From positions 1 through 7,808 of the forward strand of contig JAFGKV010000113.1 in assembly GCA_016928395.1 (NCBI GenBank): a stretch of DNA of 7,808 bases, in the 5' to 3' direction. The notes under the pieces were generated by a model. It searched no databases. It was not told the origin of the DNA and was given only the letters and a program-made list of their open reading frames with translations. The translations under genes and the position numbers were made by a program. Positions 1,221 to 7,808 of this stretch are shown in pieces. Source of the DNA: Candidatus Fermentibacterota bacterium (GTDB lineage: Bacteria > JAFGKV01). Position 1 is the first letter of the stretch; every line of letters begins with the position of its first letter.

Positions 1221-1280
1221 ACGCCGCCTCGGGACGGCGTTTCTCCGTCCGGATTCGGACAGGCGTGTCCGCTCACGCCT
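1221..1280 (+). other. Cluster of adjacent and mutually exclusive hairpins
   Basis: ACGCCG (1221-1226) pairs with CGGCGT (1235-1240), followed by TTCTCC. GTCCG (1247-1251) pairs with CGGAC (1256-1260) over a 4-base loop. AGGCGTG (1261-1267) pairs perfectly with CACGCCT (1274-1280) over a 6-base loop. A competing hairpin, CGGACA (1256-1261) with TGTCCG (1266-1271), would exclude the last two. The first stem with its short T-rich tail could be a weak terminator for the aminotransferase gene. The set could also be an attenuator-like switch or simply GC-rich palindromes. Confidence 0.45.
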
Positions 1281-1395: not shown

Positions 1396-1509
1396 ACACG
1401 CTCGCGGCACGCCTCATGCAGAAGGAAGGCCACGCCGGTGTCCGAGCCGGCCAGCGACCACCAGCGGCAGGTCCCGGTGCACGACGATATCCGCCAGATG
1501 GGCGGAAGG
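1396..1509 (+). repeat. Repeated intergenic block, copy A
   Basis: This block matches 5295-5406 in the same orientation. The left part, 1396-1422, is identical at 20 of 27 positions to 5295-5321, and six of the seven differences are transitions. The middle (1423-1462, 40 bases) is variable but of nearly equal length (39 bases in copy B). The core, 1463-1494, matches 28 of 32 columns with one single-base gap. The tail 1495-1509 adds 10 of 15. The core begins 251 bases before the ATG of the barrel gene. It can fold as a hairpin: GCGG(C)AGGTC at 1464-1473 with GATATCCGC at 1486-1494, leaving a bulged C and a 12-base loop. Confidence 0.75.
1405..1420 (+). promoter_or_regulatory. Possible sigma-54 (-24/-12) promoter in block A
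   Basis: CGGCACGCCTCATGCA has the GG and GC doublets exactly 10 bases apart. It agrees with TGGCACG-N4-TTGCA except at the first base of each half. It aligns with the better match at 5304-5319 in copy B. The predicted start would lie near 1431, giving a leader of about 280 bases to the barrel gene. No sigma-54 activator gene or obvious upstream enhancer repeats are visible in the window, so a chance match remains quite possible. Confidence 0.25.
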
Positions 1510-1701
1510 CAAAATGGTCGCAACGGCTCGGCCACCGGCATCATTGTTTCCGAACCCCAAAGCCCCTTCGTCCGTCACACAACAGTGCAGCCTCCGCAAC
1601 GCGCAGGGAGTCCCGCCGCAGACAACCCAAGAACCTCTTGCGGTGCTGAGACTTCGAACACAAGCTTTCTCGCGAAGTCAGTGGAACCTCATGCATTGAA
1701 G

Positions 1702-1707
1702 GGAGGG
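1702..1707 (+). promoter_or_regulatory. Ribosome binding site fixing the barrel gene start
   Basis: GGAGGG, within the longer purine run GAAGGGAGGG, ends six bases before ATG 1714. That start begins a classic signal peptide, so it is preferred over the open frame further upstream. Confidence 0.85.
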
Positions 1708-1713
1708 CAGATC

Positions 1714-3894
1714 ATGCGAACATGCGTAGCCATTGCGCTTGTGGGACTGTCGCCCCTCTGTGGAGCCGTTGCCGGGGGAGAGACCTGGCGGATGGTTCGT
1801 ACGACGGAGCCGCCCGTGCTGGACGGACGATTGGATGACCCGTGCTGGGCCTCATCACTAGCTCGCGCGGGGTTCATTCAACGGGATCCTCGCCCTGGCG
1901 AGCCCTCCACGGAGGAGACTACTCTCTACGCAGTCTACACCGACCGCGCGCTGTACATCGCGTTTTTCTGCGGGGACAGTCAGCCCGACCGCATCGTGTC
2001 GAGGCTTCGCAGCCGGGACAGCAGCGTGTGGCCCGATGACAATATTGACCTGTGGATCGACCCGACCGGGAACGGGCTGCAGCTCTACTACTTCTCCACC
2101 AATCCATCAGGTGTGAAGTATGATGCGCTCTACACCAGCCGCGGCCAAGACTCCAATCCCCTCTGGAATGCCCATTGGGATGTGGCCGCCGCGGTGGGGG
2201 AGGACGGCTGGAACGCCGAGTTCGAAATCCCGTTCTCCAACCTCAAGTTTGACTCTGATTCAAAGAAGCCTTGGCTCTTCAACGCAGGCCGGCTCATCCG
2301 GCGCACCGGCGAGGAGAGCTACACGACAGCAGTGCCTTACGAGCACAACATGTTCTACGTCGAGGATGCAGTGCGTCTCGTGGGGCTTGAGGGGATTGAC
2401 CCGGGCGTCGGCGTCAAGGTAACCCCCTACGCCAAGGGCGACCACCGATGGTTCCCCCCGCTGCCCACAGAAGACAACACCGACTTTCAGGGCAATGCGG
2501 GCATTGACATCGATGTCGACATCGGCAGCAATCTGACGCTGGCGGCGGCAGTCTATCCCGACTTCGCCGAAATCGATCTGAATCCTGACCAGTACCAGAT
2601 CGGGTTTGACCAGATCTTCGTGCCTGAGACGCGCCCCTTCTTTCTCCGCGACTCCAACTACTTCAATACCATCAACTTCCAGCCCTTCTACTCCCGGCGA
2701 ATCGGCACACGCCTGTTCGACGAGAATGGCGTCTACCACGATGCGGACATCGTGGTCGGTGCACGGCTGACGGGCAAGGTGGGGAAAGTGGGTATGGGTG
2801 CGTTCTATGCCCACACGGATGAGGCATTGAGCGAGCCCGCCTCCGACTGGGTAATCGGACGCACTGCGTATGAGCTGGGACCCCGCTCGTTTGTCGGCCT
2901 GGTAGGAACCATGCGGAGCGCAACCGCGGTGAATTACGATGGGACGGCCTATTCCGCGTACGACTTCGGCAGTTTCGGCCTCGACTACGAGTACTACTTC
3001 AAGGACAACTGGAACACGTGGGGCATGCTCATAGGCACCCACGACACCAGGTTTCCAAGGAACGAGCTCAGCGCGCAGTATGGCCACAGCGGAGGCATGG
3101 CCTGGCGGCGGGGAGGCTTCGAAGCCTGGGGCAACTATGTCGATTCCGCCGAGCGCTTCTCCACAGACGAAACGGGTTTCGTTCCCCGTACCGACGTTCG
3201 GACGGTCGAGGGGGGAGTCTCCCAGCAGTGGGGATTCGGCGATGCCCTCTTCAGGAACCTACGCGCCCATCTTCACGGGATCCAGCACCGCGATCGTGAC
3301 TGGGACCGGGCCTTCGACCAGTATGAGCTCGAGCTTTCGACCCTCACCCGGTTCAGCTGGCGGTTGAACCTGAACCTGATCGCTGGGGTTGATCAGAGGT
3401 TCTACCGCGAAGGCGAGAAGCACGACTTCTACGGGTTGGCCACCGAGTTCAACACGAATCCCGCAGCAGTCGTCAGCCTGTTCGGAGAGACCATCTACGG
3501 GTCTCTGGCCGATTACACCACGAGCTCATGGGGCCGTTTGTCTCACAACAGCCTTGGCGTCTCCATCTCTCCTTTGACCCAACTTCAACTGGGCGGCCAT
3601 CTCCAGTACAACCGCTGGTGGATGGACAAGGGGCAGCCTTCGTCCGACTATGATGTGGCCATCTGGCAGACCACGGCCGAGTATTTGTTCACCCGGGAGC
3701 TCTTCTTCAGGCTCTTTGGCCAGGGATCGACCCAGAACGACCAAAACGTGTTCCGGGCCCTGCTGGGCTGGGAGTACACGCCAGATTCGAACCTCTACCT
3801 GGCCTATGAGCAGTGGCGTGACGACTCGGATGGCGCCTTCGAGCTGGTCAACCACGGCATCTTCCTGAAGCTCGACCACTTCGTGCAGTTCTGA
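1714..3894 (+). CDS. Secreted CBM9-like / DUF5916 outer-membrane barrel protein
   Basis: A 726-residue protein. Residues 1-20 form a Sec signal peptide (short positive end, hydrophobic core, AVA before likely cleavage); Cys15 is not in a lipobox. Residues about 32-225 look like the carbohydrate-binding family 9-like domain: PPVLDGRLDDPCW, the LYIAFFCGDSQPDRI strand, and DDNIDLWIDPTGNG. Residues about 235-726 are the DUF5916 region, marked by YPDFAEIDLNPDQ (281-293), the VPETRPFFLRD motif (303-313) and FYSRRIG (325-331). The rest has alternating aromatic strands typical of an outer-membrane beta-barrel, ending in a C-terminal Phe (DHFVQF) like a BAM recognition signal. The length is normal for the family. 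The ligand and exact role of these proteins are not established; binding or uptake of glycans or other organic matter is only suggested by the CBM9-like part. The gene stands alone, with a 600-bp leader region holding repeated block A. Confidence 0.92.
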   Translation: MRTCVAIALVGLSPLCGAVAGGETWRMVRTTEPPVLDGRLDDPCWASSLARAGFIQRDPRPGEPSTEETTLYAVYTDRALYIAFFCGDSQPDRIVSRLRSRDSSVWPDDNIDLWIDPTGNGLQLYYFSTNPSGVKYDALYTSRGQDSNPLWNAHWDVAAAVGEDGWNAEFEIPFSNLKFDSDSKKPWLFNAGRLIRRTGEESYTTAVPYEHNMFYVEDAVRLVGLEGIDPGVGVKVTPYAKGDHRWFPPLPTEDNTDFQGNAGIDIDVDIGSNLTLAAAVYPDFAEIDLNPDQYQIGFDQIFVPETRPFFLRDSNYFNTINFQPFYSRRIGTRLFDENGVYHDADIVVGARLTGKVGKVGMGAFYAHTDEALSEPASDWVIGRTAYELGPRSFVGLVGTMRSATAVNYDGTAYSAYDFGSFGLDYEYYFKDNWNTWGMLIGTHDTRFPRNELSAQYGHSGGMAWRRGGFEAWGNYVDSAERFSTDETGFVPRTDVRTVEGGVSQQWGFGDALFRNLRAHLHGIQHRDRDWDRAFDQYELELSTLTRFSWRLNLNLIAGVDQRFYREGEKHDFYGLATEFNTNPAAVVSLFGETIYGSLADYTTSSWGRLSHNSLGVSISPLTQLQLGGHLQYNRWWMDKGQPSSDYDVAIWQTTAEYLFTRELFFRLFGQGSTQNDQNVFRALLGWEYTPDSNLYLAYEQWRDDSDGAFELVNHGIFLKLDHFVQF

Positions 3895-5105: not shown

Positions 5106-5294
5106 GAGGCCATACCACCTTACATCGCCTCACAATGAATGCACTCGCGCCCAGGGATGGGCAGTCCTGTCCGGTTGTGGACAGCACGAGACAGGGCTTT
5201 CCCATGCAACCTGCATTCCGCTTCTCACCACGGCAACTTCCTGTGGCACTGCTTTCAATGCTTCCGCGTCAGCTAGCCAGGGTGCCGCACACCC

Positions 5295-5406
5295 ACGTGC
5301 TCGTGGTACGCTCCTTGCAGACTGGATCACCAAGGCCGTCGCGGAAACCCCGGTGGTAGCAGCGGCATGTCCCGTGCACGACGACGTCCGCGTGGTGGGC
5401 GAATGG
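5295..5406 (+). repeat. Repeated intergenic block, copy B
   Basis: Partner of 1396-1509. The core, 5361-5391, forms a nine-pair bulged hairpin: GCGG(C)ATGTC at 5362-5371 with GACGTCCGC at 5383-5391, and an 11-base loop CCGTGCACGAC. The bulged C and the loop are kept in copy A, apart from one extra loop base there. Copy B's core begins 285 bases before the phosphatase start, in the same orientation as that gene. On the minus strand both copies can be read as similar short peptides (AD(I/V)VVH...D(L/M)PL) only if a one-base frameshift is allowed in copy B. This leaves a decayed coding relic as an alternative. Confidence 0.75.
5304..5319 (+). promoter_or_regulatory. Possible sigma-54 (-24/-12) promoter in block B
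   Basis: TGGTACGCTCCTTGCA differs from TGGCACG-N4-TTGCA at one defined position only, and has the required 10-base gap between the GG and GC doublets. The predicted start is near 5330, about 315 bases before the phosphatase gene, so the transcript leader would contain the conserved hairpin at 5362-5391. No bEBP gene or enhancer site is seen in the window. Confidence 0.35.
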
Positions 5407-5594
5407 GACACACCATCGGGGTTCCCCGGCGTCTTTCTCTTTCGATCCGTGACTGCCAGACCCTATCACCTGTTCATGCGCTCCTCTGGTGCGGGGTTTT
5501 GCCGCTCAGTGTCCGGTGATGGAACGACACTCACGCGGCGTCGTTGCACTCCATCGAAGGGTATGTTTCTTCCTCCTCGTCTCCGGTCCCCCAT

Positions 5595-7721: not shown

Positions 7722-7808
7722 GTGACTCATACTAAATTGACATCATACATAGAGTTTTGAGCCAACCGAACTGGGTAGTGGAACTCACCATGTCGGGGTG
7801 ATTCATCA
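7722..7808. other. AT-rich segment after the phosphatase gene, no gene visible
   Basis: Directly after the TAG the composition falls to roughly one third GC for about 35 bases, against a GC-rich background. TCATAC occurs at 7727-7732 and 7743-7748. GGTGA(C/T)TCAT occurs at 7721-7730 and again at 7797-7806, close to the window end. TCACC/GGTGA (7785-7789, 7797-7801) could form a small hairpin. It may be a promoter or operator zone for the next gene, or the edge of a mobile element. No terminator or coding frame can be supported. Confidence 0.45.

Follow-up and report, generated by a model that had tools for sequence, protein, structure and literature searches.

Two hairpin elements with sigma-54 promoter motifs in a Candidatus Eisenbacteria genus: a probable small-RNA gene in two copies

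The locus and its two matching elements

The window analyzed here, 7,808 nucleotides long, is an entire contig (G000:C147) of a 4.79-Mb genome; two of its intergenic regions hold related elements, copy A upstream from a gene for a DUF5916/CBM9-like protein and copy B upstream from a gene for a HAMP-SpoIIE (PP2C) protein. Each copy consists of three parts in a fixed order: an upstream palindrome, a sigma-54 promoter motif, and a hairpin. The features are as follows.

1247–1270, plus strand: copy A upstream site GTCCGGATTCGGACAGGCGTGTCC, enhancer-like (UAS), the sole exact GTCCN6GGACAN4TGTCC in the host genome
1405–1420, plus strand: copy A predicted sigma-54 promoter CGGCACGCCTCATGCA, GG-N10-GC, from the sequence
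1431–1542, plus strand: copy A predicted hairpin RNA, from folding, inverted repeat, covariation, and orthologue identity
1714–3894, plus strand: gene downstream of A, DUF5916/CBM9-like protein, from Pfam
5159–5183, plus strand: copy B upstream site, enhancer-like (UAS), from a pattern match, with TGTCCGGTTGTGGACA at 5168–5183
5304–5319, plus strand: copy B predicted sigma-54 promoter TGGTACGCTCCTTGCA, GG-N10-GC, from the sequence
5331–5436, plus strand: copy B predicted hairpin RNA, from folding, inverted repeat, covariation, and orthologue identity
5646–7721, plus strand: gene downstream of B, HAMP-SpoIIE (PP2C) protein, from Pfam

The contig opens with a short tandem repeat (tcgtccat; positions 1 to 40), probably an assembly break point, and closes with an A+T-richer tail past the PP2C gene (7722–7808).

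The original prediction described two similar blocks in the same orientation, at 1396–1509 and 5295–5406, and both were found in the sequence where it had placed them. Their similarity is above chance, as it had claimed: the two intergenic regions align locally with a score of 49, against a maximum of 35 in 500 dinucleotide shuffles, and each copy, compared by blastn with the whole genome, returned the other as its top non-self match (E, 5e-5 to 6e-5; 84% identity across ~43 nt). The next-best match had an E of 0.06; this possible third copy (G000:C50) has neither a matching hairpin nor a matching promoter and is coding-like. The limits of the blocks had been set too short, since the sequence past the segment first called a tail supplies the other side of a hairpin stem, and the element runs on to ~1542 in A and ~5436 in B. 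The internal divisions also take on a different meaning: the left part is indeed shared but is now read as a sigma-54 promoter, the variable middle (40 and 39 bases) forms the 5' side of a long stem, whose conserved apical domain is the core.

Promoter motif, upstream palindrome, and orthologues

A GG and a GC spaced exactly 10 bp apart are the hallmark of a sigma-54 promoter. This arrangement is present in all four copies of the element that we identified, namely, A, B, and one orthologue of each in the nearest named relative, the MAG of the sister species Ca. Eisenbacteria Prado127 (G001, same genus), where all three parts of the element are present. In the window, GGNACGN5TGCA occurs in A and B and nowhere else. 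Promoter A, two positions off the sigma-54 consensus, is 69% identical to its orthologue (TGGTACGGCCCTTGCA), with the GG and GC kept; for promoter B the figure is 88%. Placing the start of transcription 12 nt past the GC gives predicted starts at ~1431 and ~5330.

The palindrome GTCC-N6-GGAC lies at 1247–1260 in A and 5169–5182 in B, its sole two occurrences in the window, which alone is modest evidence (11 of 200 shuffles gave two or more). It is found in all four copies at −134 to −166, the orthologues occupying the two ends of that range, and the copy A site lies at −158 relative to the −24 element. Across three related genomes (~12.8 Mb), the exact GTCCN6GGACAN4TGTCC has three matches, which are A and the two orthologues; the copy B site has three half-sites in reverse orientation, with one mismatch to the full site. 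Other one-mismatch sequences in these genomes had no sigma-54 site in reach at the loci checked; this check covered one strand, and the known copies L123 and L128 were therefore missed in it. In the host genome, the combined pattern of upstream site and promoter picks out A and B only (a reversed control matches once); its one match elsewhere lies within a gene. Other TGGNACGN4TTGCA sites in the three genomes come without GTCC-N6-GGAC and without a comparable hairpin. The host genome encodes RpoN (PF04552; E, 5e-59) and has ~13 strong matches to Sigma54_activat (PF00158); a search of the 82%-complete sister genome gave no RpoN.

The orthologue of A (locus L053) stands ahead of a DUF5916 gene, and that of B (L049) beside DUF3159. 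Conservation follows the parts of the element: hairpin A is 87% identical to L053:983-1094 and hairpin B 82% identical to L049:5463-5570 (minus strand), and identities are 69 to 88% in the promoters, 38 to 54% in the spacers, and 33 to 41% in the upstream flanks and distal downstream sequence. The distribution is narrow. A core-pattern scan of 84,980 species genomes gave 8 loci, with promoter and hairpin at just the two Prado127 loci. Searches with a covariance model, proposed in the original prediction as a check on the host and its relatives, did detect the element beyond the window, with just two copies in each of two genomes of this genus; the same-family genome and the rest of 290 genomes returned no copies in a search whose first filter scores part of the candidates, such that strongly diverged copies could escape. 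In IMG/VR, the core pattern hit 58 contigs, the best with a model score of E 0.16.

These data bear directly on the idea that the blocks are a palindromic or mobile repeat scattered in the genome (of the MITE or REP type) or a hairpin that serves recombination at the DNA level. Long inverted repeats and the presence of two copies 3.9 kb apart would suit such an element, but there are two copies only per genome, the stem arms of A and B differ from each other as terminal repeats would not, each copy keeps its position and neighbors in the sister species, and the promoter and upstream site accompany the hairpin in constant order. The search of plasmids and phages gave weak Streptomyces matches within a gene, otherwise nothing, and none of them was credible. 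We consider a mobile repeat very unlikely.

The hairpin and what it may encode

In each of the four copies, a hairpin of ~105 to 112 nt begins 0 to 6 nt past the predicted transcription start. Hairpin A has stem arms at 1434–1460 and 1515–1539 around a conserved apical domain (~1462–1510) and a predicted start at ~1431; in hairpin B, the arms lie at ~5337–5357 and 5412–5432, the apical domain at ~5360–5408, and the predicted start at ~5330. The apical domain reads AGCGGCA[G/U]GUCCC(G)GUGCACGACGA...UCCGC...GGGCG. A and B differ along the stem by compensatory changes: of 34 pairs in the four-sequence alignment, 11 have both bases altered. The covariation score of 0.407 compares with 0.205 in shuffles, was attained by 0 of 500 shuffles, and fell to 0.108 or less when partners were slid by 1 to 3 columns. 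These values come from four sequences in two species and reflect mostly one paralogue-level contrast of A against B. Paired cells make up 88% of the alignment, a share favored by the structure having been drawn with the four sequences in view. The structural claim rests on this comparison because folding energies alone are less striking: z values are modest (−2.9 and −0.8, and −1.3 to −2.6 for a longer stretch), and 24 to 39 of 300 shuffled sequences have at least the number of long-range nested pairs of the real sequence. Counts of G-U and C-A pairs are too close to indicate the transcribed strand, which is assigned from the orientation of the promoter. The contrast between a stem kept for its shape and an apical domain kept for its sequence suggests that the molecule probably works through its apical domain, which would bind a protein or pair with a target mRNA.

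The original prediction had also entertained a decayed gene fragment, and an overlapping coding sequence would be a related possibility: one frame of A and of its orthologue would give the peptide VPVHDD[I/V]R, and in A the frame is open into DUF5916 (1438–3894). Substitutions in the longest plausible frame are nevertheless spread flat over codon positions relative to the orthologues (5/4/6 and 7/5/5), the frame is broken in the core of B by a 1-nt deletion and in L053 ends soon past the hairpin, and the changes in the stem are accounted for by compensatory pairing. There is no Pfam match on either strand, the minus strand included, in agreement with the earlier statement that no coding feature explains the blocks. 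A coding origin is the least probable of the readings considered here, and we consider it very unlikely.

The remaining option, a new cis-regulatory or leader RNA, came nearest: the evidence points to a promoter followed by a structured RNA, although a leader appears less likely than a free-standing small RNA (sRNA). Under the leader hypothesis, a sigma-54 promoter and structured 5' leader would control the DUF5916 and PP2C genes in cis as a riboswitch, protein-binding leader, or attenuator. Each copy does point at a gene 170 to 210 nt downstream, and copy A is followed by DUF5916 in both species, an arrangement that a leader would account for as well; the orthologue in L053 shares 83% protein identity and is frameshifted (near residue 373, at L053 ~2414–2420), which is either real or an assembly error. 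The 38 nt 3' of hairpin A are fairly conserved (68% identity to the orthologue), against 33% for B, and a small terminator-like hairpin in the 3' arm of B (5416–5429) would be compatible with attenuation. That site stands little above shuffled sequence (1 found versus 0.4 expected) and is missing from the other copies, and downstream of A, L053, and L049 we saw no clear terminator. The sequence from hairpin to start codon is mostly unconserved (34 to 41%), and the DUF5916 and PP2C genes are unrelated. A further counterargument comes from L049, in which all that is left of the PP2C gene is a C-terminal part interrupted by stop codons and frameshifts, with a convergent pair of ECF-sigma and zf-HC2 (sigma/anti-sigma) genes beyond it; the B-type promoter, upstream site, and hairpin all persist there with no intact gene on their strand. 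Because element B outlives an intact downstream gene, a free-standing RNA is favored, and we regard a leader as unlikely, though less so than a repeat or a coding remnant. At 5416–5441, a small separate hairpin, CGGGGTTCCCCG followed by CTTTCTCTTT, can form from the 3' arm of B; it was not seen in the other copies.

A probable sRNA pair and its relation to known systems

Taken together, A and B are best explained as paralogous sigma-54- and enhancer-dependent genes for a structured sRNA of ~105 to 115 nt, sharing one scheme of activator and partner, an explanation that we favor with reasonable confidence. They look like two copies of a small-RNA gene not described before, and a new pair of regulatory RNAs is a more probable reading than a repeat that landed there by chance. 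From the sequence, we infer that both would be transcribed, with ends close to those of the hairpin, under an enhancer-binding activator, and would act in trans. An NtrC-type enhancer-binding protein would bind GTCC-N6-GGACA ~135 to 160 bp upstream and, once bound, activate transcription from the GG-N10-GC promoter by sigma-54 RNA polymerase; the transcript would begin at the base of a ~20-bp stem carrying the conserved apical domain. A single signal acting through the enhancer-binding protein would most likely turn on both RNAs together, and their apical domains may then bind the same protein or mRNA. The common control elements and apical sequence suggest that A and B probably share one partner, with additive or regulator/decoy roles. 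It is possible, if somewhat short of an even chance in our estimation, that they represent a new hairpin sRNA family of Eisenbacteria under enhancer and sigma-54 control, whose two paralogues, with a near-identical apical surface on freely rewritten stems, have a partner in common, one perhaps regulating it and the other serving as a decoy.

Several known sRNAs are controlled in a similar way. In Enterobacteriaceae, glmY is activated by QseF/GlrR and sigma-54, with the QseF consensus TGTN12ACA (PMC6075780). GlmY and GlmZ resemble A and B as paralogous structured sRNAs with an NtrC-type activator, a sigma-54 promoter, and TGT...ACA sites; however, the half-sites in A and B are spaced as TGT-N10-ACA, their fold is one long hairpin, they belong to another phylum, and no qseEGF neighbors were seen. 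Pxr of Myxococcus and relatives, at ~108 nt, has a sigma-54 promoter, paralogues in some species, and variable stems (PMC5568312), all of which recall A and B, but it forms two or three stem-loops and lies next to nla19, whereas A and B form one long hairpin, have no such neighbor, and match Pxr in neither sequence nor model. The Qrr sRNAs of Vibrio are likewise multicopy and driven by an enhancer-binding protein and sigma-54 (PMC10162802 and PMC8043402), but they belong to a different family and host group. Among families with an Rfam 15 model, there was no covariance-model match to GlmY/GlmZ, Pxr, Qrr, or others; at a permissive threshold, Rfam 15 gave no credible match in the window and the four element loci, the weak matches being to eukaryotic snoRNA families at chance level. 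Control of A and B would work like that of GlmY, Pxr, and Qrr; membership in any of these families is not supported.

If this interpretation is right, it provides an uncultured lineage with a regulatory RNA whose control elements are defined, and a further case, beside GlmY, Qrr, and Pxr, of sigma-54 and an enhancer-binding protein driving paralogous sRNAs, which would suggest that the sigma-54 switch has been recruited repeatedly for RNAs kept silent until a signal arrives. A search of the literature on Eisenbacteria with sRNA or sigma-54 brought up no such report among its top results and says little about priority. Metatranscriptomes would allow a direct test of the claim by means of the covariance model, promoter, and enhancer motif.

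Sigma-54-like sequences of other kinds were also encountered. A relaxed pattern of promoter plus AGCGGCA gave two outside matches in 386 genomes, both unrelated when inspected. The host genome holds two further strong sigma-54 promoters of the form TGGCACG-N4-TTGCA, at G000:C172:7387 (L157) and G000:C227:10643 (L160); these promoters (position 1501 of each locus) are followed by a Shine-Dalgarno-like stretch and an ATG, with neither upstream site nor hairpin. In an unrelated genome (G260:C232; L198, ~900–975), a sigma-54-like promoter lies within a near-perfect palindrome (TGGCACGCTTCTTGC...GCAAGAAGCGTGCCA).
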